IMG/VR virus record: IMGVR_UViG_3300042402_001379
Coordinates: 1 to 38,969 of that record
Source: a virus
Length of the DNA stretch: 38,969 nucleotides
Strand: one strand, 5' to 3'
The notes under the pieces are model-generated. The model was not told where the DNA came from and did not search any database. It saw only the letters and a list, made by a program, of their open reading frames with translations. This document shows, piece after piece, positions 1,795 to 31,189 of this stretch (within the stretch, counting starts at the first letter, position 1; every line of letters begins with the position of its first letter). Made by a program: the position numbers and the translations under genes.

Positions 1795-1827
1795 AGAAAC
1801 AATACATAACTTTAAGGTAACATCAGT

Positions 1828-15359: not shown

Positions 15360-15806
15360 ATGAAGATATCACACATAATTGAAGGATTAAAGGATCCTAA
15401 AGATAACCCATGCTGGGATGGGTATAAACCTGTAGGTACAAAAAAGAAAAACGGAAAAACTGTTCCTAATTGCGTTCCTGAAAGTTTAGAAGAATCATAC
15501 GATGGCGACGAGTTTTACGAAGCGTATGGCGATCTTTGGTTTAACGAAGACGAGCAATTAGACGAGGCTGAATATCAAGGTCGTAAAGTGCCGCTTGGAA
15601 AACCGATCCGAAGCAGTGGTGGCCCTAAGAAGTTCCATGTGTTTGTTAAAAACGGCGACAAAGTAAAAAAAGTAAACTTCGGTGATCCTAATATGAGTAT
15701 TAAGAAATCAAATCCTGCTAGACGAAGAAGTTTCCGTGCTAGACATAACTGCGATAATCCAGGGCCGAGAACTAAAGCTCGTTACTGGAGTTGTAAGGCT
15801 TGGTAA
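15360..15806 (+). CDS. Tagged small protein with basic Cys-containing C-terminal domain
   Basis: First member of the tagged block: MKISHIIE-G fits the tag, with I6-I7-E8 as the predicted prohead-protease site. The 148-residue protein has three parts: a Pro/Lys segment (DNPCWDGYKPVGTKKKNGK), an acidic linker with several further (L/F)-x-E sites (ESLEES, FNEDEQLDEA; L67-D68-E69 before A70), and a very basic C-terminal domain (NPARRRSFRARHNC, KARYWSCKAW). I recall this C-terminal domain from other phage head-region proteins, function unknown. Cleavage after E69 would release a small basic, possibly DNA-binding, protein. Its ribosome-binding site is inside a terminator hairpin. Confidence 0.7.
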   Translation: MKISHIIEGLKDPKDNPCWDGYKPVGTKKKNGKTVPNCVPESLEESYDGDEFYEAYGDLWFNEDEQLDEAEYQGRKVPLGKPIRSSGGPKKFHVFVKNGDKVKKVNFGDPNMSIKKSNPARRRSFRARHNCDNPGPRTKARYWSCKAW

Positions 15807-15807
15807 T

Positions 15808-16428
15808 ATGATAATTTATAAGTTCACAAACACAGTAAACAACAAAGCCTACATTGGTTTCAGCAAATATACTATCGCAGAACGCTGGGACAAACATACC
15901 AAGTTGTCTGCTAAAGATTCTGACAACAGAAAGTTTTACAATGCAATCAGAAAGTATGGACACGATGTTTGGCACAAAGAAGTAATTGCCACAGCGGATA
16001 CTGTAGAGCAAGCCAAGCAATTAGAAATCCAACTAATAGCAGAACACGATACATATAACACTGGCTACAATAGTACACTGGGCGGCGATGGATTTAGTGG
16101 TAATCACCGAGAAGAGTCAAAGCGTAAAGCAAGTAAAGCACTGAAAGGTATTCCAAAAGATTATGATCGTATGCTAGGTAAATCACACAGTGAACAGTCT
16201 AAGCATAAGATTTCAGAAGCTCATAAAGGCATGAAGAAGCCATGGGTAAAGTGGAGCAAAGAACAAATAACCACTAGGGCAATGACACGTAGGAGCCTTA
16301 CAAAAGAGCAGTATGATGAGATACATGCTCTACGTAATCAAGGTAAACTTATCAGAGAGATAGTATCAATCACAGGTCATAGCAACGATATTGTTAAAAA
16401 GTGGCTTAAGAAAGAATGGGTAATATGA
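15808..16428 (+). CDS. Freestanding GIY-YIG homing endonuclease
   Basis: A 206-residue endonuclease with start at ATG 15808, one base after the previous stop. MIIYKFTNTVNNKAYIGFSK is the GIY-YIG core; the catalytic Arg (AERWDKH) and Glu (QAKQLEIQLIAEH) follow. Two NUMOD3-like repeats (NHREESKRKASKALKGI and HSEQSKHKISEAHKGMKKP) and a C-terminal helix-turn-helix (LIREIVSITGHSNDIVKKWL) would bind DNA. It lacks the N-terminal tag of its neighbours and breaks the tagged block, so I read it as a mobile gene inserted between two block members. Its stop codon overlaps the next ATG. Confidence 0.87.
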   Translation: MIIYKFTNTVNNKAYIGFSKYTIAERWDKHTKLSAKDSDNRKFYNAIRKYGHDVWHKEVIATADTVEQAKQLEIQLIAEHDTYNTGYNSTLGGDGFSGNHREESKRKASKALKGIPKDYDRMLGKSHSEQSKHKISEAHKGMKKPWVKWSKEQITTRAMTRRSLTKEQYDEIHALRNQGKLIREIVSITGHSNDIVKKWLKKEWVI

Positions 16429-17399
16429 GATTATTTGAATTATTTGAAGCAAACGTTAGCAGTGTTGGATTGATATTTGGTAGATTCAACCCACCTCACA
16501 AGGGTCATAAAGCAGCATGGCAAATGGCTAGCGAAAATCCTGTTTGGTTTGTTGGCACAAATAAATCAACACAAGGTCCAAAAGACCCACTTCCATACGA
16601 AGTAAAAATTAAAGCAATGGAAACTATTTGGCCAGAAGTATCAAAACACATTGCACCAAGTCAAAGCTGGCTAACTCTTGCAAGTGAAATTTATCAAAAA
16701 TACGGCGACGTGGAATTGCGTGTATACACAGACGAAGACTGGGTATTAAAAACCCTAGAGCAATATAATGGAAAAGAAGGCGCACACGGAGGTTATAACT
16801 TCCCAAAAATTACCAAAGTCCCAACACCAAGATTAAGTAGTGCAACTGCACTAAGAACAGCGGTTGCACTAGGAGATCGCAGAGCATTTGCTGATGCTGC
16901 AGGAGTATCTGCAGATACAATGATAGACGGCAAGCCGTTCTTTGATTTAGTAGCGGAATATTTAGGGCAGTATAAAAAAGAATCCAAAGCTGTTGTATCT
17001 GCTATAAATGAATACGATGACGAAGAAGAAGAAATTTACTACAGTAAAAAATTTGCATCTGTTGCAAAGAAGATTTTTAAATCAATGTATCCCGATGCTA
17101 AAGTTAATGCAAGAGAAGATGATGATGGATATCTAGCTATTGAAACAACAGACGGTGTATTTGGATTTAGTATGGGTGTAACTCATCAATATGGTGATAA
17201 CGTTATAACTGTAGCAAATGCATATGCAGGTCAATACAAGGGCGTTGTAGGACAGCTAGTTAAGTCAGCTGTTGAATTTTTACAACAAAAACACCCAGAT
17301 GCAGAAACTACACTAGTTGCTCAGCACGATGTAAGTGATAACTACTGGCCACAACTTGCTAACAAGTTAGGCATTAACTACGAAAATAATGCGTGGTAA
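16425..17399 (+). CDS. Tagged nucleotidylyltransferase (NMNAT/cytidylyltransferase-like)
   Basis: A 324-residue protein, start taken at ATG 16425 (ATGA overlap) because this gives the tag MRLFELFE-A; an ATG nine bases earlier is in frame but would mask it. Residues 14-180 are a HIGH-type nucleotidylyltransferase domain: GLIFGRFNPPHKGHKAAW carries the HKGH motif (25-28), and LSSATALR (137-144) is the second motif (ISSTxxR type). The closest known class is nicotinamide-nucleotide or related adenylyl/cytidylyl transfer, but the substrate cannot be settled. I194-N-E196 then separates an acidic linker and a second domain (about 205-324) with a faint GNAT-like look (QYKGVVGQLVKSAVEFLQQ, NYWPQLANKLGINYE). 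The predicted location is inside the phage head. Confidence 0.78.
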   Translation: MRLFELFEANVSSVGLIFGRFNPPHKGHKAAWQMASENPVWFVGTNKSTQGPKDPLPYEVKIKAMETIWPEVSKHIAPSQSWLTLASEIYQKYGDVELRVYTDEDWVLKTLEQYNGKEGAHGGYNFPKITKVPTPRLSSATALRTAVALGDRRAFADAAGVSADTMIDGKPFFDLVAEYLGQYKKESKAVVSAINEYDDEEEEIYYSKKFASVAKKIFKSMYPDAKVNAREDDDGYLAIETTDGVFGFSMGVTHQYGDNVITVANAYAGQYKGVVGQLVKSAVEFLQQKHPDAETTLVAQHDVSDNYWPQLANKLGINYENNAW

Positions 17400-17408
17400 G
17401 GACATACA

Positions 17409-17771
17409 ATGAAGATAAATGAGTTTGGCGATGATTACTTTAATGAAACTATACGTAAAGTAAAAGGCGGATATCGCTTAGTTTCTAAATCTGGCAAAAA
17501 TCTCGGAACATATCCTACCCATTCCGGTGCAGAAAAACGTGAGAAACAAGTACAATACTTTAAGCATATGGATGAAGCACCGCAGCAACAGCAACCCCCG
17601 CTCCCTATAGATTTAAATAAAATTAACAATCTTATCGACAAACTAGAAAGTCGGGGCGTTGGTCCAGAGGATGCAGATAAAATGCGTAGAGAAATACAGT
17701 TATTGTCTACACCAAGACAATCAATGCATCCAGAAGCAATACTACAACTATTAACCATATTAGCAGGGTAA
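17409..17771 (+). CDS. Tagged small protein with conserved GGYRLVSKSGKNLG domain
   Basis: A 120-residue protein. The N-terminus MKINEFGDDYFNE is a divergent tag, with F11-N12-E13 in place of L-x-E. Residues 17-52 (VKGGYRLVSKSGKNLGTYPT then SGAEKREKQVQYFKH) form a small basic domain that I recall as common in phage genomes, without a known role. A M54-D-E56-A site follows, then a Pro/Gln linker and a helical tail (INNLIDKLESRG, AILQLLTILAG). Cleavage after E56 would leave two short pieces. It sits between two firmly tagged genes with spacings of 9 and 4 bases, and so most likely belongs to the same packaged set. Confidence 0.65.
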   Translation: MKINEFGDDYFNETIRKVKGGYRLVSKSGKNLGTYPTHSGAEKREKQVQYFKHMDEAPQQQQPPLPIDLNKINNLIDKLESRGVGPEDADKMRREIQLLSTPRQSMHPEAILQLLTILAG

Positions 17772-17775
17772 GAAC

Positions 17776-18969
17776 ATGAGATTACTAGAACTATTCGAAG
17801 CAGACGGGCTGTCGAGACAAGAGGCAAATGCGTTAAGCGTATATAATGCATTTACTAACGCAGGCTTTAGTGATGCTCAAGCCAAAGCTCTTACTGCAGA
17901 AGTTAATAGAGAAAATAGTTTTCAAGATAGATATTTGTATGGCACACACTCTGATCCGTACAACCGTGCCACTAATGCAGGTATGATTAGTTGGCAAGGA
18001 CCACGACACGATTCATTTATGAATTACATGCGTGATGCTGGCAGAGTCGATGACAGCGGTAGTCTTATTCCAGGGCAAGAAACACTAGATGCACAAGCAA
18101 AGTTTGTGCGGTATGAAATGGAAAATGTTCCGGATTATAGCAGAACAGCTAACGAGTTTTTAGCTAATCCAGATATTGACCCAAACACTGCAGCCGAAGT
18201 ATTAGGCGATAATTACATCAGATGGCGTAGAACAGATCCTGCATATAGTGCTGCCGGGTATGCAAACCTATCATCCGGATATGCTACACTAGACAGAGCA
18301 ATGAATACTACAGGCGGAAGTTTTGCTGCAGGTTCATACGTTCCGTCAAGTTCAAATGTTACACTATCAACTAAATCGGCACCGACACCTGTATTAAGAT
18401 CACCTATACCTGCTCCTCCAAATCCGTTTACTAGTATTCCTGCTCGTGTAGGAATTTTGCCTCCTAAGTTTATTCCAAAAATAGACGTAAGTAAACTTCC
18501 AGGTCCTAGTGGTGCAATTAACCTCAGAAGAGATTATAGAGCAAGTGGCGGGCCATTAGACAGTGTTAAAACACTTCAGTCTGGTTTATCTACACTAGGT
18601 TATAGTGTAGGAGATCAAGGTATTGATGGACGTTATGGCAGAAATACAACAGCGGCTGTTAGACAGTTTCAGCAAGACTATGGATTAAAAGTAGACGGCA
18701 TTGCAGGGGTGCAAACTCTAAGTGCAATGAAGGAAATATTTGATAAAACAAGTTTACCCACTAGACCTGTTACACCTACTCCAGGGTTAAGACCGAATAC
18801 AACAGTGGCTACAAAACCAGTTGTTACTGCACCCAAAGTTAATCCAACGCCAATGGGAGCATTTGATCGTACAGGACCGGTTGTAACTCCGCCTAAGCCA
18901 ATTGTAGCACCAAGACCAACTCCGGCACCGGTAATACCTCCGGCAGCAGTCACAGGACAACGCAGATGA
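17776..18969 (+). CDS. Tagged lysozyme-like protein with peptidoglycan-binding domain
   Basis: A 397-residue protein with tag MRLLELFE-A (L6-F7-E8). Residues 12-175 look like a phage tail-lysozyme type lytic domain: YNAFTNAGFSDAQAKALTAE, then NRENSFQD with a candidate catalytic Glu (E46), and GMISWQGPRHDSF. A Pro/Ser linker leads to a PG_binding_1 domain (262-318: LSTLGYSVGDQGIDGRYGRN, AAVRQFQQDYGLKVDG). The tail is Pro/Thr-rich. The domain set fits a cell-wall enzyme used at entry, but most T4-like entry lysozymes sit on the tail, whereas the tag predicts storage in the head. It overlaps the next gene by four bases. Confidence 0.72.
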   Translation: MRLLELFEADGLSRQEANALSVYNAFTNAGFSDAQAKALTAEVNRENSFQDRYLYGTHSDPYNRATNAGMISWQGPRHDSFMNYMRDAGRVDDSGSLIPGQETLDAQAKFVRYEMENVPDYSRTANEFLANPDIDPNTAAEVLGDNYIRWRRTDPAYSAAGYANLSSGYATLDRAMNTTGGSFAAGSYVPSSSNVTLSTKSAPTPVLRSPIPAPPNPFTSIPARVGILPPKFIPKIDVSKLPGPSGAINLRRDYRASGGPLDSVKTLQSGLSTLGYSVGDQGIDGRYGRNTTAAVRQFQQDYGLKVDGIAGVQTLSAMKEIFDKTSLPTRPVTPTPGLRPNTTVATKPVVTAPKVNPTPMGAFDRTGPVVTPPKPIVAPRPTPAPVIPPAAVTGQRR

Positions 18970-19340
18970 GATTACACGATTTGTTCGAAGAAAAAGGAAC
19001 CAAAGCTGAAGCAGGATACATTCCTCGTCCTAAGAATGGTCAAAAATGTATAAATTGTACTATGTGGAGAGATCCAAACAAGTGTAGTGCAGTTGCAGGA
19101 AATATTGATCCCAATGGTTGGTGTGATTGGTATGCAGGCGGTGCATACGGTAAGCGTGGCAAACGTGTAGACGAAGATGGTCGTATTGTGCCTGGTGTTA
19201 ACACAACTGTTGACGTTAAGCCCGGCGAGACTGAACGTCAAGCTAAAAAGTTTTTTGGTGGCGACGGCAAGCCAAAACTGTTAAATACTAGCACAACAAA
19301 TAAACTTTTTAATTTAGGACTGGCAAATGAGAATAAATGA
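18966..19340 (+). CDS. Tagged HiPIP-like Fe-S protein
   Basis: A 124-residue protein with tag MRLHDLFE-E. After a Lys-rich spacer, four cysteines (C28, C31, C40, C53) are arranged as C-x2-C-x8-C-x12-C in CINCTMWRDPNKC, NIDPNGWCDWYAGG. The C-x2-C ... GWC pattern is that of high-potential iron-sulfur proteins, which hold one 4Fe-4S cluster, and similar small domains occur in phages. A basic stretch (GKRGKRV) and a Gly/Lys-rich tail follow. If folded, this would be a redox or DNA-associated cluster carried in the head. A structural zinc site is the main alternative. The next gene begins inside its 3' end. Confidence 0.65.
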   Translation: MRLHDLFEEKGTKAEAGYIPRPKNGQKCINCTMWRDPNKCSAVAGNIDPNGWCDWYAGGAYGKRGKRVDEDGRIVPGVNTTVDVKPGETERQAKKFFGGDGKPKLLNTSTTNKLFNLGLANENK

Positions 19341-22300
19341 AATATCAGAGAACATTAGTCACACAAGTAAACGCTTGCGTGACATTGAACGTGAAAAGAA
19401 AGTAAAGCCAGGCACCGACGAATGGTTTAAGCTATGGTTTAGTTTGCCTTATCTTAAAGAAGCAAAAGAAAATATATACGACATTTTAGAACCTGAAGAT
19501 TGTGGACCATTTGACGGCGGGTGTGTTTTAGTAGCACAAGCATTACAAAAAATTCATGGCGGTGATATAGTAGTTCTTATTAATGATCGTGGAAACGCAG
19601 ATCATGCTGCAGTTAAAATCGGAAATACATTACTAGACTTTGATGGTCCGTTACCTGTCGATAAGTTTGTTAAACGTTTTGAAAAGAACGAACATGTAAA
19701 GATAACAGGCATTCGTCCAATGAAAGACAGCGATTTACCTGAAGCTACAAGAAATCAGACCTTATTGCCTAAAATTATTAATTTATTATCTAAGGGTGTT
19801 AAAGAAGCGTTTTCTTCAGAACCAGATCCTACCGGATATCAACACACTGCACTAACTAATCCACAATATACAATTGTAGTAAACACACCCGGCGAACTAG
19901 ATTGGTATAAGCTAGGTCAACATTTTGCTAATCTCGGACATGAAGATCCTCACGAATATGGTCAAGCAGAAAGCGATATGATGATTGTTGCTCCTAATAA
20001 AGAACAACTGTTGAGATACATGCAAGAATTAGATCGATTAGGTGCTGAATACAAACTAGTCGGCGGCTCACATGAACATCCCGAAATTCATGCCGAATCA
20101 AACGTGTTCACTAATGCACGTATGAACGCAATTAAAGCAGGTAAAACTGAATTTAAAGTTGGTAGTAAAACTTACAAAGTTACAGGTGATACTAAGGATG
20201 AAAAAGAAGCTGTAGCAAATCTTAGCGAATTAATGAATGGCAAAGTTGTTAGTATAAATCTGAAACACCCAGACAGTAAACGTGCAACTACAGCAACAAG
20301 CACAGCATTTAATGAAGATGTAAGCGTTCCTGAAAATGTCTTTCATATGAAAAACAGACTTTTAAAAGTTAAGCAAATAACAGATACTATGAGCAATCGC
20401 CCTCTTATGTTTAGAAGTTTTGTGTATGATGCAGAACCAATTGCAAAAATCATTAAAAAGGTAACTAATGATTCTGCTAGAAGTATCAAAACAGGATCGA
20501 ATCAAAAACAAAACGAAGTTTTAAAAAAATTAGGTATTAGTCATCCAACATTTGCAGCCATGGCCAACAGCAAATACGCAAATGTCAGCCGAGATTCATT
20601 GGAAGATATGGGAGTTTGGGGAATGGAAAACATTTTTATTCCGATGACCAATGAAATATACTACAGTGATGCTATCGAAGATCTAGGCATGGGACGCAAA
20701 TCTGGAGGACGTAATATTATAGTGCAATCTGATTTTGATGTAGATGAAGCAGTAGCAACTTATAAAAAAGGATGGCCGAGTGCCAATTTCGACAACGAAA
20801 TAATTGTCGACACAAAAGAATACTATCTTTTAAATTTACGTTCATTCTTACTAGAATTGACAAGCCCAGAAATCAAAGATAGAATAAAACGTTTAAAATC
20901 AATGTACAACAAATCATATGAAAGACGTGCTGAAGAAAATCATATCAATGATATATTGAAAGATATATTCAAAACAAAAATAACTACATACAGAGATATA
21001 TCAAATTGGATCAGCAATGTTGCCGTTCCGTTTGTAGATATGTTAGCAGCCAACAGAGGTGAGCCAACAAACAATGACGATTATGATGGCGATGATGAAT
21101 GGTCTGACTACAACATCGACAATGACGACTACGACGATGAAGATGAATTAAAATTAGACAATGACGACTACGACGATGAAGATGAATTAAAATTAGAAAG
21201 TGTTGGTAGCAAAGTCAACGAAGAAACCGGCAAAGAAATGTTGAAAATATTCAGAGGTATGCATCATGATGCTGGTATGAATAAAGACATGGATCGTTTT
21301 ATATTATCAAATGATTGGGAACTTAGAGATTTTACTCCTGACATGTTCCCTAGCGAAGAAGAATTTTTCGATTACGACGATCCGTTTGATCGTATAATTG
21401 ATATTGATTATAGCCATCATGTTAATCTAAGCGCACCTATTATTGTAGGACCACAGTTTAGTGATGGCAAGTACAGTGTAATAGATGGTAATCATCGTGC
21501 CGCCGCTGCACAGCGTATGGACAAAACTATCAAAGGTTATTTTCCTGTAAAGAAAGCAACTGAAGCAAGAACATTTGCTCCTCAACAAACTCCTATGCAA
21601 GACTTAGTAAACTCATATCTGTTTTTCACATCATTTGGACAAATGGGAACATCCGACGGTGCTAAATCTTTAGAAAGTGCAGAGAAAATAAAAGAAGTAA
21701 TAAGAACACTTTCCCAAAGTCATAAAAACTTGCAGAATTTAGATAAGCAAGCATTAGAAAAAAACAAAAACAAAATACTCACACATATTCACGATATGAT
21801 GAACTATGCTATTGCTCATTTTAGAGAACATTTAAAGCCGGAGCAATTTGATGCTAAGAAACAACAAATAAACAAGATATTAACCAAATACAATAATATA
21901 ACATCTACAAACGAAAATATGATCCGTGAACAACCAGATAGCAAAAATTATTTGTTACAACTAGAACGTGACAAACGTGCCGGTATGTTAATATTGCATA
22001 TTTTAGATAAAGGCACAGGCAAAAGAACTGAAGTGCGTGGCAAAATGGGGTATGAAACCAATGGCTACGATCCCAATGACAAGTTGCATCAACTGTTGGA
22101 CAAGGTAGGAAAGAGTGCTAGTGTAAGCGACCTTATGAATGGCGACGTTGTTAGTATCAATCCACGTCATCCAGATGGTGCAAGTGCAAAAGCCGCCGCC
22201 GACAAAGCATATAACGAAAACTTTGCTGAAAGCAGTGCGCTGTTCACTTTCAAAATTAAACGTAGAAAATTAAATGTGCCAGCCTTAATAAAAGCAGGTG

Positions 22301-22773
22301 CAATATTCATCACCTATCCACATGGCGAACAAGGGTGGGAAACTAATGATAAACAAGTGTGGTCCTATAGTTTGATCTCACTTTATAATGTCCAAAGCGG
22401 CGGCTGGCCTAAGGATGCAAAAAATTATCTTAAACCACAGAGCTACAAACGAGCAGAGCAACAAATTAACTCAAGTGCGCCAAACCTAGGATCTGATCAA
22501 TTAGTATATGATGGAAAATATAATCAAATACTATGGAGCATTAAAAAGTTAGGTATACCGGACAATGTAGCATTTCTAGATAACAGTCAGCAAGATGTAG
22601 CAGAAAACTTTGCAGATGGTAAGAATCCTGGTCGCAAAGGATTAGCAAAGCGTATGGGTGTAAATACTACAGCAAGTGTTAGTAGTTTAAGAAAGACTGC
22701 TAAAAATAGTTCTGGTGAAAAGCAAAGGATGGCACATTGGCTTGCTAACATGAAAGCAGGTCGTGAAAAATGA
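19327..22773 (+). CDS. Giant tagged multidomain (polyvalent-like) protein
   Basis: An 1148-residue mosaic beginning with a tag variant, MRINEISE-N. In order: a possible papain/NlpC-like domain (C66 in CGPFDGGCVLVAQAL, H93 in ADHAAVKIG, D104); a module at about 165-257 (YTIVVNTPGELDWYKLGQHF); a short module ending LMNGKVVSINLKHPD (about 298-331), repeated later at 931-964 as LMNGDVVSINPRHPD; a large unknown region (340-570); a very acidic linker with two perfect 13-residue repeats (599-624); a ParB-like element (YSVIDGNHRAAAAQRM, 716-731); a helical region; and a basic C-terminal module (TASVSSLRKTAKNSSGEKQR). Sites of the form [L/V/I/F]-x-E lie between modules, for example after 139, 160, 330, 632, 968 and 1093. 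This fits the polyvalent-protein type proposed to enter the host with the phage DNA. Confidence 0.7.
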   Translation: MRINEISENISHTSKRLRDIEREKKVKPGTDEWFKLWFSLPYLKEAKENIYDILEPEDCGPFDGGCVLVAQALQKIHGGDIVVLINDRGNADHAAVKIGNTLLDFDGPLPVDKFVKRFEKNEHVKITGIRPMKDSDLPEATRNQTLLPKIINLLSKGVKEAFSSEPDPTGYQHTALTNPQYTIVVNTPGELDWYKLGQHFANLGHEDPHEYGQAESDMMIVAPNKEQLLRYMQELDRLGAEYKLVGGSHEHPEIHAESNVFTNARMNAIKAGKTEFKVGSKTYKVTGDTKDEKEAVANLSELMNGKVVSINLKHPDSKRATTATSTAFNEDVSVPENVFHMKNRLLKVKQITDTMSNRPLMFRSFVYDAEPIAKIIKKVTNDSARSIKTGSNQKQNEVLKKLGISHPTFAAMANSKYANVSRDSLEDMGVWGMENIFIPMTNEIYYSDAIEDLGMGRKSGGRNIIVQSDFDVDEAVATYKKGWPSANFDNEIIVDTKEYYLLNLRSFLLELTSPEIKDRIKRLKSMYNKSYERRAEENHINDILKDIFKTKITTYRDISNWISNVAVPFVDMLAANRGEPTNNDDYDGDDEWSDYNIDNDDYDDEDELKLDNDDYDDEDELKLESVGSKVNEETGKEMLKIFRGMHHDAGMNKDMDRFILSNDWELRDFTPDMFPSEEEFFDYDDPFDRIIDIDYSHHVNLSAPIIVGPQFSDGKYSVIDGNHRAAAAQRMDKTIKGYFPVKKATEARTFAPQQTPMQDLVNSYLFFTSFGQMGTSDGAKSLESAEKIKEVIRTLSQSHKNLQNLDKQALEKNKNKILTHIHDMMNYAIAHFREHLKPEQFDAKKQQINKILTKYNNITSTNENMIREQPDSKNYLLQLERDKRAGMLILHILDKGTGKRTEVRGKMGYETNGYDPNDKLHQLLDKVGKSASVSDLMNGDVVSINPRHPDGASAKAAADKAYNENFAESSALFTFKIKRRKLNVPALIKAGAIFITYPHGEQGWETNDKQVWSYSLISLYNVQSGGWPKDAKNYLKPQSYKRAEQQINSSAPNLGSDQLVYDGKYNQILWSIKKLGIPDNVAFLDNSQQDVAENFADGKNPGRKGLAKRMGVNTTASVSSLRKTAKNSSGEKQRMAHWLANMKAGREK
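21118..21195 (+). repeat. Perfect 39-base tandem duplication (acidic linker)
   Basis: Two identical 39-base copies (21118-21156 and 21157-21195) in frame within the giant gene, each encoding a 13-residue Asp/Glu-rich unit DNDDYDDEDELKL. The lack of any base difference points to a recent slippage event that lengthened an acidic linker before the ParB-like part. Confidence 0.92.
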
Positions 22774-22991
22774 AATTGTTTTTAAAAAAGATTTGGAGAT
22801 ACTTTAATCCACAGCATATAATTTATTATAAGCATCAGGATAAAGACATGGCAATACATGTAAAGAGTATTGACAAGAAGACTAAAAATCTTATTAAAGG
22901 TAAAACAATTCAAAACGAAACATTTGAAATCTGTAGCGGTGACAAATCACTCGAATACTATATAGAAGAATATAAGGATGACTTAATATGA
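22770..22991 (+). CDS. Small untagged basic/acidic protein
   Basis: A 73-residue protein starting in an ATGA overlap with the giant gene. The N-terminus is basic and aromatic (MKLFLKKIWRYFNPQHIIYY), the middle is Lys-rich (HVKSIDKKTKNLIKGKTI) and the C-terminus acidic (YYIEEYKDDLI). It has no tag with Glu at position 8, no membrane helix and no known motif. Its stop overlaps the start of the next tagged gene, so it is part of the same translational chain. The role is unknown. Confidence 0.55.
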   Translation: MKLFLKKIWRYFNPQHIIYYKHQDKDMAIHVKSIDKKTKNLIKGKTIQNETFEICSGDKSLEYYIEEYKDDLI

Positions 22992-23716
22992 GATTGAAAG
23001 ATATATTTGAAGCTTCGCCGGAAGAAAGAGATGCCGAACGTCGTGCTGCCGCAGCGGCATCGTCAAGGTTGTCGAGACCACCAAGGCAAGGTCAAACAGT
23101 TAGTGGCCCCGATGCTGTTAGAACAGGCGCAACAGGCAATCAAGCATTTGTTTCATCGTTATCTGGTCCCGGGGTAACTAGCTCTAACTTAAGACGTGGC
23201 TCGACAGGCACTGATGTGAGCAGTCTTCAACAAATGTTGATAGACAAAGGTTACAATCTTGGAGATACTGGAGCAGATGGAAAATTTGGTCCGAGAACTG
23301 CCGCAGCGGTTAGACAATTTCAAACAGATTTTGGGTTACAAGCAGATGGTATAGCCGGCGACCAAACAATGTCTGCATTGAATAAGTTAGGAGCAAAACC
23401 GGCAGCAGCACCAGCACCTGGACGAGTAGATCGAGATCAACAAGGTAGCATAACAAGACCGACAACGCCAACAGCACTACCAACTAGACCAGGTCAAGAC
23501 AGAAGTGGTCCTCCAGCAGCACTACCAACCAGACCAGGTCAAGACAGAAGTGGTCCTCCAGCAGCACTACCAACCAGACCAGGTCAAGACAGAAGTGGTC
23601 CTCCAGCAGCACTACCAACCAGACCGGGGCAAAACGTTAGTGGTCCTATAACTGGAGGATTGCCAACCAGACCGGGGCAAAACGTTAGTGGTCCCAGGAA
23701 TAGACGAAGATTTTAA
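22988..23716 (+). CDS. Tagged peptidoglycan-binding protein with Pro/Gly repeats
   Basis: A 242-residue protein with tag MRLKDIFE-A (I6-F7-E8). A charged helix (SPEERDAERRAAAAASSRL) is followed by a PG_binding_1 domain at 69-134 (LQQMLIDKGYNLGDTGADGK, AAVRQFQTDFGLQADGIAG), closely related to that of the tagged lysozyme. The last 100 residues are low-complexity: five units built on LPTRPGQ-x-x-SGP, basic and Pro-rich. There is no catalytic domain, so it may bind cell wall as a partner of the lysozyme or act as a packaged binding protein. The repeats arise from 45-base DNA repeats, likely to vary in number. Confidence 0.72.
   Translation: MRLKDIFEASPEERDAERRAAAAASSRLSRPPRQGQTVSGPDAVRTGATGNQAFVSSLSGPGVTSSNLRRGSTGTDVSSLQQMLIDKGYNLGDTGADGKFGPRTAAAVRQFQTDFGLQADGIAGDQTMSALNKLGAKPAAAPAPGRVDRDQQGSITRPTTPTALPTRPGQDRSGPPAALPTRPGQDRSGPPAALPTRPGQDRSGPPAALPTRPGQNVSGPITGGLPTRPGQNVSGPRNRRRF
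23474..23698 (+). repeat. 45-base tandem repeats in the coding sequence
   Basis: Tandem units of 45 bases start at 23474, 23519, 23564 and 23609, with a diverged fifth near 23657. Units 1 to 3 are almost identical; units 4 and 5 change the second half from CAAGACAGAAGTGGT to CAAAACGTTAGTGGT. Each unit encodes 15 residues around LPTRPGQ. This is a coding minisatellite and not a CRISPR, as there are no spacers. Confidence 0.9.
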
Positions 23717-23744
23717 TAGACTGACACTCATCGCAGTAGGTGAC

Positions 23745-23756
23745 GTGGCATGCCAC
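23745..23756. other. Perfect 12-base palindrome GTGGCATGCCAC
   Basis: The palindrome lies in the 76-base gap between the repeat protein and the HAD gene, one of the few real gaps of the tagged block. It might be a protein-binding site or a small hairpin; there is no other support for a function. Confidence 0.3.
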
Positions 23757-23792
23757 TTGCAAACACAACACGCCGTTAAAGGATTTAGATAA

Positions 23793-24983
23793 ATGAGATT
23801 ACATGAATTGTTAGAAGCATACGGAGAGTCAAACTTAGGTTTGACTATCTTCGACATTGATGACACACTATTTCATACTACTGCAAAAATCAAAGTAGTA
23901 AAGGATGGTAATGTTGTTAAGACATTAGACAACCAACAATTCAACAATTACAAATTGCAACCTGGCGAAGAGTTCGACTTTGGTGAATTTAGAAGTGCAG
24001 AAAAATTTAATAAAGAAAGCGAACCTATGAAACCAATGATAGCAAAGTTAAATGCTATATTGAAAAATGCAGGTGACAGCAAAGTTATTATGTTAACTGC
24101 AAGGGAAGATTTCGATAACAAGGACTTATTTTTAGATACATTCAGACAGCATGGTATCAACATTGATTTAATACATGTACACAGGGCTGGCAATATAAGA
24201 GGTGATGCAATCCCTGCCGATAAAAAGGCTGTATTTGTAAGACAGTATTTGGACACAGGAAAATATGGTCGTGTAAGAATGTATGACGATAGTATGACTA
24301 ATCTAAAAGTGTTTAACAAACTACAACAAGAATATCCCGATGTAAAATTTTCAGCATATTTTGTAAACCATAATGGCAGCATCAGAACAGTAAAAGATGT
24401 AAATGAAATGAGCAGAGATGAATATAATGCTAAAGCAAAAGAAAAACTAGTCAATGCAGCATTAGAAGCAATGCACAGGCTTGTAAAAAGTAAAGGCGAA
24501 AGACATAGTTTAGGAGATTATGCATTCCGTATTGCAAATAGTTTTGCTGCAGGGCTAAGTCCACGTGAACTCGAAAAACTTTACAGAAACAAATATGGTA
24601 TCGCTGAAGCAGATGTTCCAGAAATTACACAAGTGCAACTAGATACATTAGAAAAGTATTTGGATCAGCTGTTTAGTAAACTAGGCATCGATGTTGAATT
24701 TACCCGTCACTTTTTAGATCGTGTAAACGACGAAAGAAACTTAAAACAAATCACAATAAAAGAACTTGCAATTTTGTTTAAAGACACGTATATCAATTAT
24801 GGTAAGAAGATTGCACAAATGGGTCCAGATGCACAAGCTGTTATCAAGGACATGCGGTCTGATATTAATGTCCCGTTTGTGTTAAATTGGGATTCACGTA
24901 GTCAAGTGTTGGACTTAGTCGCTAAAACAGTAATGCGTAAAAAGAACTTCACAACACCGAATCCTGAATTGCCGTTGAATTAA
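23793..24983 (+). CDS. Tagged HAD-like phosphatase with C-terminal domain
   Basis: A 396-residue protein with tag MRLHELLE-A (L6-L7-E8). Residues 15-205 form a HAD hydrolase: motif I FDIDDTLF (D21, D23), motif II MLTARE (T102), a motif III lysine near PADKKAVF (about 144) and motif IV MYDDSMTN (D165, D166). This group often includes 5'-nucleotidases and polynucleotide phosphatases; the substrate here is unknown. An I270-A-E272-A273 site then precedes a second domain (about 280-396: FTRHFLDRVNDERNLKQ, ITIKELAILFKDTYINYGKK) of a kind that recurs in phage proteins. The I-A-E-A junction suggests that prohead protease would split the two domains. Confidence 0.78.
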   Translation: MRLHELLEAYGESNLGLTIFDIDDTLFHTTAKIKVVKDGNVVKTLDNQQFNNYKLQPGEEFDFGEFRSAEKFNKESEPMKPMIAKLNAILKNAGDSKVIMLTAREDFDNKDLFLDTFRQHGINIDLIHVHRAGNIRGDAIPADKKAVFVRQYLDTGKYGRVRMYDDSMTNLKVFNKLQQEYPDVKFSAYFVNHNGSIRTVKDVNEMSRDEYNAKAKEKLVNAALEAMHRLVKSKGERHSLGDYAFRIANSFAAGLSPRELEKLYRNKYGIAEADVPEITQVQLDTLEKYLDQLFSKLGIDVEFTRHFLDRVNDERNLKQITIKELAILFKDTYINYGKKIAQMGPDAQAVIKDMRSDINVPFVLNWDSRSQVLDLVAKTVMRKKNFTTPNPELPLN

Positions 24984-24991
24984 GAGGTTAT

Positions 24992-25870
24992 ATGCGTATA
25001 GCAGTACTAGTTACCGGGCAACCGAGATTTTTAGATCAAGGAGCGTGGTGGTTCAAAAATAAAGTATTCACAAACAATAATAACATGCAAGTCGATTATT
25101 ATTGTTATTTTTGGAATGATGGATCGCCTGAACTAGAATCTAGAATTATAAATGCATACGCTCCAGTTAAGTATCAATTATGTGATTACGATTCTGTTAT
25201 CAATGAGTTTATAGTAAAAGTACAAACTTATAATAATGCAAACCCGTCTACATTAACGCAAATACCCGATCACATTAAAGAAAATGTTTTGTTTAATACC
25301 TCTGAAATTACAAAATGGGGGAGAAATTTTTGGGGGCAGTATTTTGCATCTAGTAAAATAACAGAAATGACTGGTAACCTAGCTAATGAAAATTACGACA
25401 TAATTATCAAAACCAGGAGTGATGCTATTTTTAATCCGATGCATGAAAAGCTGTGGTTACAATCATTCCATAATATGCGTAGAAATAATATATTCCATGA
25501 CAAAATATTACCGTCATGGTTATACATAGATAGTGGTATTGTGAATTTAGGAGATTTTGCATTTTTCTCCTTACCTAATACATGGTATAACTATAGCAAG
25601 GATTTAGAACAGCATTGTTTATCACTTGCCACTACTAATAACGTTTTGTTTAGCGAACTAGGCATTGCAGATTTTCAACACCCTGCACATTGGATATGGA
25701 CTAAATTAAGTTTGTATACAAAAACAAACTGGCTAAGTTTCGGCACAGTATGGCCCACACCTTATGCCGTAACACTGTTAAGAAGTGACATAGATATTAA
25801 AAATGTAGGGTATAAAGACATAGAGCAAGCATTTAAAAACACTGCACACTTACCTCACCAAATCAAATAA
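24992..25870 (+). CDS. Glycosyltransferase-like protein, untagged
   Basis: A 292-residue protein beginning MRIAVLVTGQPRFLDQGAWW, with a later YDIIIKTRSDAIF motif that carries the R-x-D pattern of a glycosyltransferase group seen in surface polysaccharide clusters, then GDFAFFSLPNTWYNYS and a C-terminal helical part (WIWTKLSLYTKTNW). It may glycosylate phage or host products. It lacks the Glu-8 tag, unlike the genes on both sides, so it is probably a cytoplasmic enzyme rather than head cargo. Spacing is 8 bases on each side. The substrate is unknown. Confidence 0.6.
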   Translation: MRIAVLVTGQPRFLDQGAWWFKNKVFTNNNNMQVDYYCYFWNDGSPELESRIINAYAPVKYQLCDYDSVINEFIVKVQTYNNANPSTLTQIPDHIKENVLFNTSEITKWGRNFWGQYFASSKITEMTGNLANENYDIIIKTRSDAIFNPMHEKLWLQSFHNMRRNNIFHDKILPSWLYIDSGIVNLGDFAFFSLPNTWYNYSKDLEQHCLSLATTNNVLFSELGIADFQHPAHWIWTKLSLYTKTNWLSFGTVWPTPYAVTLLRSDIDIKNVGYKDIEQAFKNTAHLPHQIK

Positions 25871-25873
25871 ATA
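25866..25873 (+). promoter_or_regulatory. Late-promoter box (AATAAATA)
   Basis: AATAAATA overlapping the stop of the glycosyltransferase gene, five bases before the ATG at 25879. It is too close to give that gene a normal leader, but could drive it as leaderless RNA or drive the genes beyond it. Confidence 0.35.
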
Positions 25874-25878
25874 AGTAT

Positions 25879-26082
25879 ATGAAAGTCTGGGAAATTGTAA
25901 AAGAAGACGCAAGCGCAGGTGCAACAGGAGCCGGTAGTATTGCCGCTGTTGCAATGCCTCTATTTACAGGTAAAAAAGGCAAAGCACATCACAAAGCTGC
26001 CCGCAAAGCTGTCGGACTTGAAAGCAAGGATGCTGTAGTTCATAACCCAGTATATACACAAATGATTCGGAGAGTCCCATGA
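25879..26082 (+). CDS. Tagged 67-residue Ala/Gly-rich peptide
   Basis: A short protein with tag variant MKVWEIVKE-D (V7-K8-E9 site). After the predicted cut it begins DASAGATGAGSIAAVAMPLF, an Ala/Gly-rich and mildly hydrophobic stretch, followed by a basic part (GKKGKAHHKAARKAVGL) and ends MIRRVP. The basic Ala/Lys composition is like that of small internal head peptides. I recall short relatives in other marine T4-like phages. Overlaps the next gene by four bases (ATGA). Confidence 0.6.
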   Translation: MKVWEIVKEDASAGATGAGSIAAVAMPLFTGKKGKAHHKAARKAVGLESKDAVVHNPVYTQMIRRVP

Positions 26083-26537
26083 GACTAGATAAAATTCAAA
26101 CAGCAAAAGTTATAGCAACACCTTTGCTACTTAAAGAAAATGCAAACACATATAAAGTATTAGACATCAACGGTGTCGAACGTAAAGTGTTTGAAGACAT
26201 CGATGTTGCAAAAGCATGGATGAAACGCCATAGCGCAGAACTTAAAGAAGGTCGTGAACCTGTAGTTTACATGAGTGAAATCATGGAAGGTGTACTTGAC
26301 GACGGTGACGAAGATGGCTGGATGGCAAAAAGCGAACTGTATAAGCTAGCCAAGTATGCTATTCAACTACACGGCATGATTCAAGATACCGATAACTTAG
26401 AACCTTGGGTGCAGTCAAAAATCACTAAGGCAGCAGATTATATTAGTAGTGTAAAGCATTACATGGAATATCTTGCAATGAACGAATATCCAGATCCTGC
26501 TCAAATAGTAAATGATATACCAGACGAGGAAATCTAA
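26079..26537 (+). CDS. Tagged protein with conserved helical domain
   Basis: A 152-residue protein. The tag region is longer and diverged, MRLDKIQ then LLLKE-NA with L18-K19-E20 as the likely site. A small beta segment (YKVLDINGVERKVFEDID) and an acidic linker (VLDDGDEDG) lead to a conserved-looking helical domain (about 100-152: GWMAKSELYKLAKYAIQLH, DTDNLEPWVQSKITKAADYI, SSVKHYMEYL). I recall this helical domain as recurring in many marine phage proteins, without a function. It lies in an ATGA overlap chain with the gene before it and one base before the next. Confidence 0.65.
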   Translation: MRLDKIQTAKVIATPLLLKENANTYKVLDINGVERKVFEDIDVAKAWMKRHSAELKEGREPVVYMSEIMEGVLDDGDEDGWMAKSELYKLAKYAIQLHGMIQDTDNLEPWVQSKITKAADYISSVKHYMEYLAMNEYPDPAQIVNDIPDEEI

Positions 26538-26538
26538 A

Positions 26539-28011
26539 ATGCGTATAAGCGATCTTAACAAAACAAAAAACATAAATGAATCAATTAAGATCAAGAAGAT
26601 CGCTAAAAAATCTTCGTTGAACGAAAGACATCAATTAAACGAGTTTGTTCCTGTTGCAGTTGTAGCAGCAGCGTCTGCGTTAGGTATTAGTGCAGATGTA
26701 TTAATAAGTTCGCTAGGGTTAGCCACTGCTACTGCTATAGCTGTAGATATACAACAAGATCCTGAAAAATATAGTAATTTAGGAAAAGCTGTTATGGGTG
26801 CATCCGGTGTGTTAGCAGCAACACTACTACAGCAATATGCATCGACGCCAGAAGAAGTAGATGATGCAATTATAAGTGGTGCTCAAGCTGCCAGGGAAGC
26901 TGAACAAACAGAACAAGTTGATTTCTTAAAAAGCATAGGTATTCCAGAAGACAGAATCGACACTAATATTAGTGCATACAGTCCGTATCAAGGTATGACT
27001 GCAGCAGAACGTGAAACCCGTTTGATGCAAGACATGGCTCGTGATGCAGAGTTTAACAGTGATAGTGAACGTAGAAATTTTGAAATTAATATGGCCGCTG
27101 CATTAGACAACACTAAACGTGAATTGCAGAGAAGTATAGAGCAAAAATTGGAAGCAGACGGTGTAACTTTAGACCGTGAAACTAGGGAAAATATAAGATC
27201 TTTTATTAATTCTGGAACTGCAGAAGAATTACTTAGTGGAATAAATCCGTCAGAAATACAACTTTCACGCAGTAGTGAAGCTGCCGCAATATCTAATGCA
27301 GTTGGGTCGTTTGTTTCAGGATTAGAAGTAAATGATATTACTGCACCAGCACGTAGTACAGCAGACACTGGAGTAAGATCATCACCTGCGCCAACGGCGA
27401 CCACTAATGCGGTAAGACCAGAACCTGCCACTGCAGCAGGTATGCCTGCACTTATTCCTGCAGTGCCTGCAGGCACTGCATCAGAACCCAAATTAAATGC
27501 TACACAAAGAAATGCAATAAGTGCAATGCCTACAACTGCAGCTGGTGCAGCACCTGCAGCAGATATTCCTGCAGACACTACAGATAACGATGTTAATGTT
27601 GCACCTACAGACCAAGAAGTTCGAGGCACCGGCAACGATGTAAACATTGACCCAAATCCTGATGTAATTCCCAATCCAGTAACTGGGCCTGGGACTATAA
27701 CAAATCCAACACCAGGTTCAGGTGTTGCTGCACCGGCTCCTGCAGGAGGATTAAACATACCTGGACTCGGACTCGGCGGACTAATAGGCGGTGCAGGCGC
27801 ATTGCACGGAGCAAGAGATCTTCTACGTAATCCGGCGGATTCAGTAACAAGTGCAGATACAGCCGACCGCACAAGAAGACTTCGGGATCCAAAACCAAAA
27901 CCAAAACCTAGACCAAGAGTCGGTGGCGGATTTAATATACCTGCTTTGAAATCTCCATTATTACCGATTGCTGATCCGTTAGAATTATCAAGAGCTGTTA
28001 CAGGCAAGTAG
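26539..28011 (+). CDS. Tagged Ala/Pro-rich protein
   Basis: A 490-residue protein, start at ATG 26539 with GAGGA upstream. The N-terminus MRISDLNKTKNINE is a variant tag (I12-N13-E14), followed by two more L-N-E sites (SSLNERHQLNEF) and a hydrophobic Ala/Val-rich segment (FVPVAVVAAASALG, VLISSLGLATATAIAV) that may enter membranes. The middle is helical and charged (AAREAEQTEQVDFLKSIG, KRELQRSIEQKLEADG). The last 200 residues are Ala/Pro/Thr and Gly-rich with a basic stretch (RDPKPKPKPRPRVGG). No catalytic motif. It could be an internal head or core-type protein; the hydrophobic stretch would suit a protein that contacts the host membrane at entry. Confidence 0.62.
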   Translation: MRISDLNKTKNINESIKIKKIAKKSSLNERHQLNEFVPVAVVAAASALGISADVLISSLGLATATAIAVDIQQDPEKYSNLGKAVMGASGVLAATLLQQYASTPEEVDDAIISGAQAAREAEQTEQVDFLKSIGIPEDRIDTNISAYSPYQGMTAAERETRLMQDMARDAEFNSDSERRNFEINMAAALDNTKRELQRSIEQKLEADGVTLDRETRENIRSFINSGTAEELLSGINPSEIQLSRSSEAAAISNAVGSFVSGLEVNDITAPARSTADTGVRSSPAPTATTNAVRPEPATAAGMPALIPAVPAGTASEPKLNATQRNAISAMPTTAAGAAPAADIPADTTDNDVNVAPTDQEVRGTGNDVNIDPNPDVIPNPVTGPGTITNPTPGSGVAAPAPAGGLNIPGLGLGGLIGGAGALHGARDLLRNPADSVTSADTADRTRRLRDPKPKPKPRPRVGGGFNIPALKSPLLPIADPLELSRAVTGK

Positions 28012-28025
28012 CAATCAACTATTTT

Positions 28026-28033
28026 AATAAATA
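28026..28033 (+). promoter_or_regulatory. Late-promoter box (AATAAATA)
   Basis: AATAAATA 24 bases before the ATG at 28058, with CACAGGAAACA as ribosome-binding region. It gives the 1043-residue polyprotein gene its own late start. Confidence 0.5.
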
Positions 28034-28057
28034 TTAATAAGTTCACAGGAAACAAAA

Positions 28058-31000
28058 ATGAAAAAGTTAGAATTAGCATACGAAATTATAAAAGAAAGTA
28101 AAAAGTCCAGAGCTTTATACTTGGAAAGTGGCAGAGATTATCATAAAGTAGCTGCACATATGTATAGTATTTTTGAATGCTATGCACATGGTCTTATTAA
28201 ATGGAACACTGCCAGAACTTACTGGCACAGCAGTATTTTAGAATATCTTAACTTATATAAAGATAATAAAAAACTTTATGTTATGGAAAGCAATCGTATG
28301 CTAGCAGAGTATGAAGATACTCTAAACAGATTCAAGCCCGCACTAGATGAATACAAAAAAGTTTCCGAAGCCAAAATGGTAAGCAACATCGTTGTTAAAA
28401 AACAAATTAGTGAAAGTGTTGCTAAAGATCACAGCAACATCTACTTTAATAAGCGTAGTTTATCAGAAAGCGCAATTAAAGATATTGCACACACAACTGA
28501 TTGGAAAAAAGTAGTTGAATCATATACTAACTTAACCTCAAATGATAAAGATAGACTTCGTATGCTAACTATCTTTGAAAACGATACATTTAATGTTACT
28601 GGTTGGTCAAAACTAAACGAAGGTCCTACTCTAGACACTACACAAATGATTACTACTGTTATGAGTGAGGCTCCTACACCCAAAATGAATCCTGCAGATA
28701 TCGAAGCAGCAATGAGTGCTAATCCAGGTGGTATGCCAAATCTAAGACCGGCAATGGTCGGGTCTATAGCAGGCGGGCAAATTGGAAGAATGGCAGGCAG
28801 CGCAATTGCCGGACCAATTGGCGGAATGGTTGGGAGAGCAATCGGTTCTCAAATTGGATCACGAGTGGGGACAAATATAGCAATGAACAAAGCAAATGCA
28901 GGTAAACCTAGTGTTACACTTAGCACCTCAGGATCAACACCGAGTGCAACAGCACCTACTACTAGCATGAGACCAATGCCAAGACCAATGGCAACAGAAG
29001 ACGCACCGAAAACTAGTATACGTCCAGTTGCAAGACCTGGTAAAAGTTTACCTGGAGGTGGTTATGAATGGCCGAACGGTGCAGTAGAGCCAGGAGCAGG
29101 CGCTAAGTTTATGACAGACATGCCACGTCCTATGCCAAGACCCGCCGGTCTAGGTGCAAAGCCAGCACCAAGCAAAAACATGATAGATGTGTATCCGCCA
29201 CGTGGTGATATGGAAATGGATCCTTCAAACATGGCACCGCCTAGCAAACTTGCGCCAACAACTAGTATAAGACCACAAAGACGTCCGGCGTCAAATGTTG
29301 GTCGTTCTGAAATGTCACCAACTCCTGGTGTATGGGATGGCAGCACACGTGGATTCGAAAGTGTCCAAAAAGAAGGTTATAAAACAATAAAGAGCATTGA
29401 TAAAGAACGTTATGACGAAATTCCTGGCCTAGAAGGTCCGTTCATGACATTAAGTGGTAAGGTTGTTTACTACGATCCAAAGGAAGGCTCATACTATGAC
29501 CGTGACACTGACATGTATCTTTCATACGAAGAATTCAAAGAGCTAGACAATGACTACAGCGGTATGAAGAATACCCGTGAAATAAAAGAAGCATCGTCAA
29601 AAAAAATTGCGTGCCTAAAGTGCGATGAAGTTTCAACCGCTAAAGCATGGGAAAAGAATAACGGATTTTGTCCAAAGTGCAAAACATCATCACAAGGTGT
29701 AGCAGAAAGCAGCGACTATGCAAAGCGCCGCAAAGCAGCCGACGATGAGTATTACGGCAAGAAGAAGCCAAAGCCAGCAGCTAAAGCAGTAGCCAAAACC
29801 GACTACCAGAAGCGTAGAGAAGTAAACGAAGCTGAAGAAGGTACCTATATGAAGCAATGGTATGACTACAGCGAAGACTTTGCAATGCTAGAACTATATG
29901 TTGATGGTAAATTAGTAGACCAATGGAATGATTACTTCGGCGCAAATGTAACAGGTAATCCGTTGCAACAAAAGTTTATTGATATGGCTAAGAAAAACGG
30001 AGTAGATCCGATTGGATTAAAAGTTATCGATGGCGAAGACGGCAACGAGGGGGTCTTTACTAGTCGTGGACTCAAGTGGAATTCAACCGAAGCAAAAGCC
30101 AAGCCAGGACACAATGCTAGAGCAATGGCAAGAGCGCAAGACATTATTCGTAAAAGCATTGAACAAAGTCAAAAAAATGTCGGTAAAAAAGACGATAAAA
30201 AAAAAGACCAAGTAGATGAAGCTGAAGTTACACATTGGGAAGTAAGTTACGATCACGGGCCGCATCAAAGTAATACAGTATCAGTGAAAGCAAAATCTAA
30301 AGAAGAAGCATTAGATAAAGCAAAACAAGTAGCCAAAGATGTGCATAAGCATAATAGAATTACAAGCATCGCAGTTTCTCCAAAAAAGAACGAGTCGTTA
30401 AGTGAGGCAAAAAGCTACGTAGGTCGTGAGACTAAAGATGGCACTTGGAGAGTATTCAAGACTGGTAACGCCGTTGCGGTGGCAGGTCCGTTTAAATCGG
30501 CACAAGAAGCCCAAGCCTGGATTAAGAAACAATCAATGCAAGATAAAGTAGACGAAGCCAACACTTCATACGAAAAAGATATGGACCACGGCAAGGCTGT
30601 TGTGATCCATGGCGTCAAAGGTGTAAAAAGCACACCGTTCCGCAAGAAGTTTAAAAACATGGCTGCATTTGAACGTTGGTCTGACACTGAAGAAGCAGAC
30701 AATTACGAAGTGCATGACATCATGAATGAATCAGTGTTATCCGAAAGCGATATTGTAAACTTTAGTTCGTTTGCCGGCATGTATAGCGACGGCGCACATG
30801 CTTATTTTACAGGTAAAGATGGCAAGGTGCATAAAGTTTCTGCCACAGGTGATAGACCTCGTAAGTTTTACATTAATGGACAAGAAACACCATGGGATGA
30901 GGTTAAGCGTATAGTAGGCAATCAGCATATTCAGCCGATGCAAGGTATGATGCACGAATCTAACGTCAACGAAGCAGTTACACTTGACTACTCACGTCAT

Positions 31001-31189
31001 GTAAGATCACACGGTAAAAAGCCACGTGACCCTGGATACTCTGCACTATGGATGTTTACTACACGTGAATATGACATGCCAGACGATGACGAGATTTTTA
31101 AATTCCAAGGTAGCTTTGCAGATGCTAAAAAAGCTGCCGCAAAATGGGCCAAGACTCAAGGCGCATACCGTGTTTATGTGATGGAGTAA
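28058..31189 (+). CDS. Tagged beads-on-a-string polyprotein
   Basis: A 1043-residue modular protein. The N-terminus MKKLELAYEIIKE-S ends in an I-K-E site at 13. A helical domain (about 14-180) is followed by a Gly/Pro/Met-rich region (205-430) with a glycine-zipper-like stretch (236-275). From 435 on, small domains follow one another, separated by [V/L/I]-x-E-[A/S] sites after residues 511, 550, 591, 721, 783, 833, 896 and 972. These bound, for example, a 39-residue zinc-ribbon (C519, C522, C538, C541), a 130-residue alpha/beta module, and four modules of 50 to 76 residues (HWEVSYDHGPHQSNTV, YVGRETKDGTWRVFKTG, FSSFAGMYSDGAHAYF). Earlier sites fall after 104, 119, 137 and 188. The pattern suggests a precursor cut by the prohead protease into mini-proteins. 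Confidence 0.72.
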   Translation: MKKLELAYEIIKESKKSRALYLESGRDYHKVAAHMYSIFECYAHGLIKWNTARTYWHSSILEYLNLYKDNKKLYVMESNRMLAEYEDTLNRFKPALDEYKKVSEAKMVSNIVVKKQISESVAKDHSNIYFNKRSLSESAIKDIAHTTDWKKVVESYTNLTSNDKDRLRMLTIFENDTFNVTGWSKLNEGPTLDTTQMITTVMSEAPTPKMNPADIEAAMSANPGGMPNLRPAMVGSIAGGQIGRMAGSAIAGPIGGMVGRAIGSQIGSRVGTNIAMNKANAGKPSVTLSTSGSTPSATAPTTSMRPMPRPMATEDAPKTSIRPVARPGKSLPGGGYEWPNGAVEPGAGAKFMTDMPRPMPRPAGLGAKPAPSKNMIDVYPPRGDMEMDPSNMAPPSKLAPTTSIRPQRRPASNVGRSEMSPTPGVWDGSTRGFESVQKEGYKTIKSIDKERYDEIPGLEGPFMTLSGKVVYYDPKEGSYYDRDTDMYLSYEEFKELDNDYSGMKNTREIKEASSKKIACLKCDEVSTAKAWEKNNGFCPKCKTSSQGVAESSDYAKRRKAADDEYYGKKKPKPAAKAVAKTDYQKRREVNEAEEGTYMKQWYDYSEDFAMLELYVDGKLVDQWNDYFGANVTGNPLQQKFIDMAKKNGVDPIGLKVIDGEDGNEGVFTSRGLKWNSTEAKAKPGHNARAMARAQDIIRKSIEQSQKNVGKKDDKKKDQVDEAEVTHWEVSYDHGPHQSNTVSVKAKSKEEALDKAKQVAKDVHKHNRITSIAVSPKKNESLSEAKSYVGRETKDGTWRVFKTGNAVAVAGPFKSAQEAQAWIKKQSMQDKVDEANTSYEKDMDHGKAVVIHGVKGVKSTPFRKKFKNMAAFERWSDTEEADNYEVHDIMNESVLSESDIVNFSSFAGMYSDGAHAYFTGKDGKVHKVSATGDRPRKFYINGQETPWDEVKRIVGNQHIQPMQGMMHESNVNEAVTLDYSRHVRSHGKKPRDPGYSALWMFTTREYDMPDDDEIFKFQGSFADAKKAAAKWAKTQGAYRVYVME

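Follow-up and report, generated by a model that had tools for sequence, protein, structure and literature searches.

A stretch of viral DNA of 38,969 bases (IMG/VR record IMGVR_UViG_3300042402_001379; the whole stretch is referred to here as the window) contains a cassette of 15 genes, at positions 15360-31189, in which most of the products begin with variants of one short N-terminal leader, or tag. We consider it highly probable that this cassette is a large internal-protein system of the phage T4 type, with partly polyprotein-like cargo, and that the tag is a capsid-targeting sequence cut by a gp21-type protease; the cassette is read as a large internal-protein set because the tag is taken to be of the T4 capsid-targeting type. 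In the proposed mechanism, the front of the tag (M-[RK]-φ-x-[ED]-φ, where φ is a hydrophobic residue) would bind the scaffold core as the prohead assembles, the protease would cut the tag end (φ-x-E) during maturation and free the cargo within the head, and the freed cargo would be ejected with the DNA into the next cell. Further φ-x-E sites between modules would be cut by the same protease in polyprotein-like cassette proteins. We infer targeting, cleavage and injection for the phage of the window, together with the function of the cargo. The features are listed below, with genes named by their first position and a slash marking the presumed cut.

15360..15806, plus strand: tagged cargo, MKISHIIE/G, with a CWxGY module and a DUF5754-like domain; the tag end is an internal φ-x-E junction before the same module elsewhere.
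15808..16428, plus strand: untagged control, GIY-YIG homing-endonuclease-like open reading frame (ORF); label from the sequence and an earlier sequence-only reading.
16425..17399, plus strand: tagged NMNAT/cytidylyltransferase-like enzyme, MRLFELFE/A; Pfam CTP_transf_like and fold matches.
17409..17771, plus strand: tagged protein with a long-spaced leader, MKINEFGDDYFNE/T; two-part motif.
17776..18969, plus strand: tagged phage lysozyme and peptidoglycan-binding protein, MRLLELFE/A; domain search.
18966..19340, plus strand: tagged protein, MRLHDLFE/E, with the internal junction RVDE/DGRIVPGVNTT; homologues have the module right behind the tag.
19167..19175, plus strand: putative internal φ-x-E site (VDE) in 18966; junction comparison.
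19327..22773, plus strand: tagged 1148-aa multi-module protein, MRINEISE/N; a mosaic whose modules occur separately in other phages.
22597..22605, plus strand: putative internal φ-x-E site, VAE/N, before the C-terminal module of 19327; 49 module contexts.
22606..22770, plus strand: mobile module C, basic (net charge +10), with 3 predicted helices; IMG/VR matches.
22988..23716, plus strand: tagged peptidoglycan-binding protein with Pro/Arg repeats, MRLKDIFE/A; domain search.
23793..24983, plus strand: tagged HAD phosphatase with a conserved C-terminal domain, MRLHELLE/A; weak polynucleotide-kinase-type match.
24992..25870, plus strand: untagged control, glycosyltransferase-like by the earlier reading's label; no Pfam hit.
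25879..26082, plus strand: small tagged protein, MKVWEIVKE/DASAGATGAG; tag motif and comparison with relatives.
26079..26537, plus strand: protein with a long-spaced leader, MRLDKIQ...LLKE/N, MRLDKIQTAKVIATPLLLKE/N; two-part motif.
26539..28011, plus strand: protein with a long-spaced leader, MRISDLNKTKNINE/S; two-part motif.
28058..31189, plus strand: 1043-aa protein with the weakest leader, MKKLELAYEIIKE/S; φ-x-E site density.

The cassette was compared with the 32 other genes of the window. A motif taken from the literature only (requiring K/R at residue 2-3 and, close to the N-terminus, [LI]xE) matched 8 of the 15 cassette genes and none of the others (p = 2e-5), and a motif derived from the window matched 10 of 15 versus 0 of 32. 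The two-part T4-based motif, consisting of M-[RK], two hydrophobic residues at a spacing of three (M-[RK]-φ-x-x-φ) and then φ-x-E within ~20 residues, was found in 11 of 15 versus 0 of 32 (p = 8e-8). Because the sequences were already known when the two-part definition was drawn up, it is the literature-only motif that gives the cleaner test. Shuffling of residues 2-15 of the same proteins gave means of 0.85 literature-motif and 0.06 window-motif matches. A nucleotide pattern for the tag, which was too strict, had zero matches in the window's own record. These enrichments indicated a short N-terminal leader common to otherwise unrelated proteins, and its end is the gp21 motif L/I-x-E. The genome is also T4-like, as the gp43-type DNA polymerase at window position 34248 matches T4-like and Rak2-like phages, with Sinorhizobium phage Phosso and Rak2-like jumbo phages as the best isolate matches.

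The shared tag proposed in the sequence-only reading was real, and ORFs exist at every start listed there. For 16425 there is an alternative ATG at 16416; 16425 is the likelier start because alignment with the homologues begins at its residue-1 Met. Three of the starts described as diverged (17409, 26079 and 26539) proved regular under the two-part design, while 28058 misses the motif. The use of untagged neighbours as internal controls holds for 15808, 22770 and 24992, and the homologue of 24992 in one relative (G008) is likewise untagged. The statement that the domains behind the tag are unrelated was only partly borne out: a peptidoglycan-binding domain occurs in both 17776 and 22988, and modules are exchanged between the proteins. 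Codon differences had been taken to indicate selection on the protein, but this argument is weak, with identical codons in 58 same-residue pairs versus 43 expected. This somewhat raised codon identity, together with the commonness of A-rich starts, would suit a shared start that acts in translation initiation or as leader RNA, was spread by recombination and has no role in the protein. Such an element is nevertheless hardly credible: L, I, F and V interchange and E and D are swapped with the order kept, the spacing varies in amino acids, M1 and E8 are invariant among homologues of 16425 and kept even at 26% identity, and untagged neighbours lie in the same operon.

The tag was compared with the capsid-targeting sequence (CTS) of the T4 internal proteins. 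IPII and IPIII start MKTYQEFIAE/A, and IPI starts MKTFKEF...TITE/A (cut positions after the literature). Targeting by the T4 CTS is mostly via residues 4 and 7 and processing via residues 8 and 10, with gp21 cleaving after L/I-x-E (PMC9026906). T-even internal proteins are recognised by such leaders and have no other shared homology, and T4's three internal proteins inhibit type IV restriction enzymes (PMC12373910). As T-even internal proteins are already recognised in this way, the kind of system is known and the scale and cargo are new. The window leader MRLFELFE/A retains the hydrophobic pair (residues 3 and 6) and φ-x-E, and the long-spaced leaders of 17409, 26079 and 26539 resemble that of IPI. 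The proposed CTS design with a gp21 cut is supported by this two-part match, by the protease in relatives and by tagged virion enzymes, and the sequence-only reading is well supported as far as packaging and cutting, with delivery into the host as a prediction.

Relatives of the cassette were found via the cytidylyltransferase and the HAD protein and not via the tag, with both queries including their own tagged N-termini, and their cassettes, which are syntenic, were bounded by flanking genes and not by tags. Clustering of the tag in other genomes, an earlier suggested check, was observed: the literature motif was present in 28 of 72 cassette genes versus 13 of 375 other genes, and the strict motif in 33 of 72 versus 3 of 375. 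Two of the relatives, G006 and G007, are near-duplicates; without G007, the two-part motif had 18 of 55 versus 6 of 350 matches. In one family in the relatives, the hydrophobic pair is kept and the presumed cut moves (MRYQEIIE/A, MRFSEFSIISE/S, MRFLEFNQTLTE/K and MQFSEFNKKLTE/A). The DUF6267 family (KWDG, a ligase/nucleotidyltransferase-like motif I by eye; G001 gene at contig position 52086, L037) has propeptides of several lengths with a constant two-part design.

The second check concerned a gp21-type protease in the same genomes. G001, the nearest near-complete relative (175.7 kb), has a Peptidase_S77 gp21-type gene (E = 2e-26) adjoining gp22-like and gp23-like genes, the latter two named by position and sequence. 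Peptidase_S77 was also detected in 4 of 17 further contigs with cassette or module relatives, all of ≥170 kb; its absence from the other 13 is uninformative because these are mostly shorter. Two peptides, MRLFELFEANVSS and QQDVAENFADGK, are candidate substrates for the G001 gp21 homologue. The tag could instead remain uncut, the proteins staying on the core or capsid and φ-x-E being only part of a binding helix. The front half (φ-x-x-φ) is indeed the more constant part, and cleavage in this clade is a prediction from sequence, but leaders of varied length retain the φ-x-E end, and φ-x-E is found precisely where modules join internally, behind upstream sequences that are unrelated. We regard an uncut tag as unlikely.

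The sequence-only reading overlooked these internal junctions. An all-against-all comparison showed the cassette proteins to be mosaics. Module C, the last 61 residues of 19327, was found in 577 IMG/VR stretches and one Rickettsiales metagenome-assembled genome; it had no match among 50,697 isolate phages, and its fold had no solved-structure match. This unannotated basic module of ~55-61 aa has mostly 82-96% identity in the best uncultured phage contigs. The residue before it is E in 49 of 49 distinct upstream contexts and P3 is L/I/V/M in 39 of 49 (background 0.206, P = 1.5e-18), while hydrophobic residues occupy P2, P4 and P5 in 2 contexts each; some contexts are related and not fully independent, and the E may belong to the module. 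Neither an E within the module nor kinship of the contexts explains a P3 conserved despite differing upstream sequence. Module C also stands directly behind an N-terminal tag (MRINELFE/NFADGK and MRAKEFITE/NFADGK; L151 and L138), and 35 of 55 ORFs with module C are tagged, several of the remainder being truncated by contig ends. A GVNTT module behaves similarly, with MKINDLDE/AVGRIV at N-termini and RVDE/DGRIV inside 18966, homologues of which have the module right behind the tag (MKINDLDE/AVGRIVKGVNTT). The tag end of 15360, IIE/GLKDPKDNPCW, recurs as an internal junction (IAE/ or VDE/) in other proteins. We lean towards combinatorial cargo, widespread in uncultured phages, in which modules would be strung together with prohead-protease joints and a capsid address and the polyproteins cut into a kit of injected proteins. 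The proposed prohead-protease joints between mobile modules are the newest part of these results; a polyprotein logic for phage head cargo was not found described in a literature search.

The last protein, 28058, has 18 φ-x-E[ASGTN] sites beyond the leader versus 4.05 expected. Known multi-cut core proteins of T4 are similar (gp22, 11 versus 3.4 expected; gp68, 5 versus 0.96), as is the gp22-like scaffold of G001 (15 versus 3.2), while T4 gp17, gp18 and gp20 are not high. 28058 groups with proteins of gp22/gp68-type density and, as its site density equals that of the multi-cut T4 core proteins, is probably cut many times. It had no scaffold family match, and it is located in the cassette and not beside gp21/gp23.

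Tagged enzymes were also present in published virion proteomes. The cytidylyltransferase T4-GC190 was detected in purified S-SM1 virions (PMC3037559); its gene starts MKKFSAFLNE/A, and the homologous enzyme of the OM43 phage Melnitz starts MKKFSEIIE/A. The virion table of S-CREM2 includes an S-adenosylmethionine (SAM) hydrolase, an APH-like kinase, a cytidylyltransferase, Cas9 and unknowns (PMC10665884). The first three have the N-termini MKDFDSFLEE, VKRFDAFLTEE and MKNFSSFLTEA, respectively; ORF13 has MKDLHSFLTEQ, and Cas9 has a leader, ...LRFASFMAEA, ~17 residues inside the annotated start (L069 7704-10313). A T4-derived motif within the first 14 residues was present in 4 of 221 S-CREM2 proteins, a small count; these four, the SAM hydrolase, the kinase, the cytidylyltransferase and ORF13, are all virion proteins (4 of 52 versus 0 of 169, p = 0.003). 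A 30-residue limit added Cas9 and three non-virion matches (p = 0.02). As the expression was chosen after several N-termini were known, this result is strong support and not a blind prediction. Address to another structure (tail, membrane or phage compartment) would be suited, for the tail, by the lysozyme and peptidoglycan-binding domains; it is very improbable given the resemblance to T4 head internal proteins and to the S-SM1 and S-CREM2 virion enzymes, the use of φ-x-E as the head-protease motif and the lack of a motif match in S-CREM2 baseplate and tail proteins.

Several observations weigh against a T4-type internal-protein system. The window phage is known from sequence alone, and its 39-kb fragment contains no gp21, scaffold or capsid gene. 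The window tag is a variant because it is two residues shorter than that of T4. P values for the relatives overstate independence because the relatives share ancestry, and contamination as the source of the S-CREM2 virion enzymes was not excluded by the authors (PMC10665884). Internal φ-x-E sites in tagged cargo were depleted in raw counts (0.87 versus 1.18, P < 0.001); without homologues, single-domain cargo was not significantly depleted (P = 0.08) and, hence, depletion is not used as evidence. Loss of the tag with retention of the domain, named earlier as a finding that would contradict packaging, is seen in the cytidylyltransferase of P-HM2, while the tag is kept in the S-SM1, S-CREM2 and Melnitz enzymes and in most window relatives. 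No tag was found in the cytidylyltransferase region of CBB, and no clear tags in the phiM12 region.

The cargo of an internal-protein system would reasonably be read as serving early takeover or counter-defence, with NAD supply and RNA end repair as examples. 16425 contains the HxGH-type sequence PPHKGH and has fold matches to NMNAT/PPAT enzymes; in the predicted structure, the leader is disordered and the enzyme core confident. Sequence searches of 16425, 19327 and 23793 against PDB gave zero matches. The cassettes of relatives include a tagged weak PARP-like protein, a CCA-adding enzyme with an uncertain start of its own and a tagged sigma-70 region-4 protein, which has the C-terminal part of 17409 in common. 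This sigma-70 protein (G008 gene at contig position 24978, L052-L053) is a candidate injected transcription factor, and a CCA-adding enzyme domain is embedded in a multi-module protein with module C (L012 11769-14366). A second tag (MKIFEIIAEDKKTW) lies within a longer tagged ORF of G006 (contig position 15146, L048/L049), as an internal start or a tag-retaining fusion. The mature start of a homologue of 25879-26082, VE/TASAGGTSAGAVAS (G015; L028 11664), resembles the predicted cleaved capsid start SE/TATAGGTSAGNVAT of the G001 gp23-like gene (L043, contig position 163462), and capsid-arm mimicry by the small tagged protein is possible. Elsewhere in the window, DnaJ-like and ClpA/B-type ATPase genes (934-4074) lie near the tail-gene block, and similar ATPases flank the cassette in several relatives. 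The T4 late-promoter-like sequence TATAAATA occurs upstream of genes at 5351, 8648 and 14295, the last being before the gene preceding the cassette; with 4 window sites, 3 of them upstream of genes, it was not above chance and was rejected as a signal.

An address label readable in sequence would allow prediction, even for phages distant from T4, of the phage proteins that accompany the DNA into the cell, and makes the question of non-DNA injection by phages testable genome by genome. It would also suggest how Cas9, SAM hydrolase, kinase and NMNAT, whose presence is otherwise puzzling, come to be in the particles of a cyanophage, and the module-joint pattern, if true, would extend a polyprotein logic to head cargo. 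Among known systems, T4 IPI, IPII, IPIII and Alt (CTS plus gp21) have the same basic residue, hydrophobic pair and φ-x-E end on unrelated proteins in a T4-like genome context; the window differs in having at least 11 tagged genes per cassette versus few in T4, enzymes among the cargo, a leader two residues shorter and modular proteins with internal φ-x-E junctions. The ejection proteins of phiKZ and SPN3US, cut by gp175/gp245, likewise belong to sets of many head proteins processed after x-x-E by a gp21 relative (PMC5694885, PMC9026906), but their propeptides are mostly >100 residues and have no shared short tag. The Dar antirestriction proteins of P1 are carried in the head by an N-terminal packaging signal, for which 30 DarB residues suffice (PMC9024508), but the signal is a different one and the prohead protease is HK97-like. 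The cyanophage virion enzymes are similar in the presence of NMNAT/cytidylyltransferase in virions (S-SM1, S-CREM2 and S-SCSM1) and in T4-like leaders (S-SM1 and S-CREM2), whereas their genomes have few tagged genes, their cargo includes SAM hydrolase, Cas9 and a kinase and, in the accessible portions of the published accounts, the packaging mechanism was not recognised.

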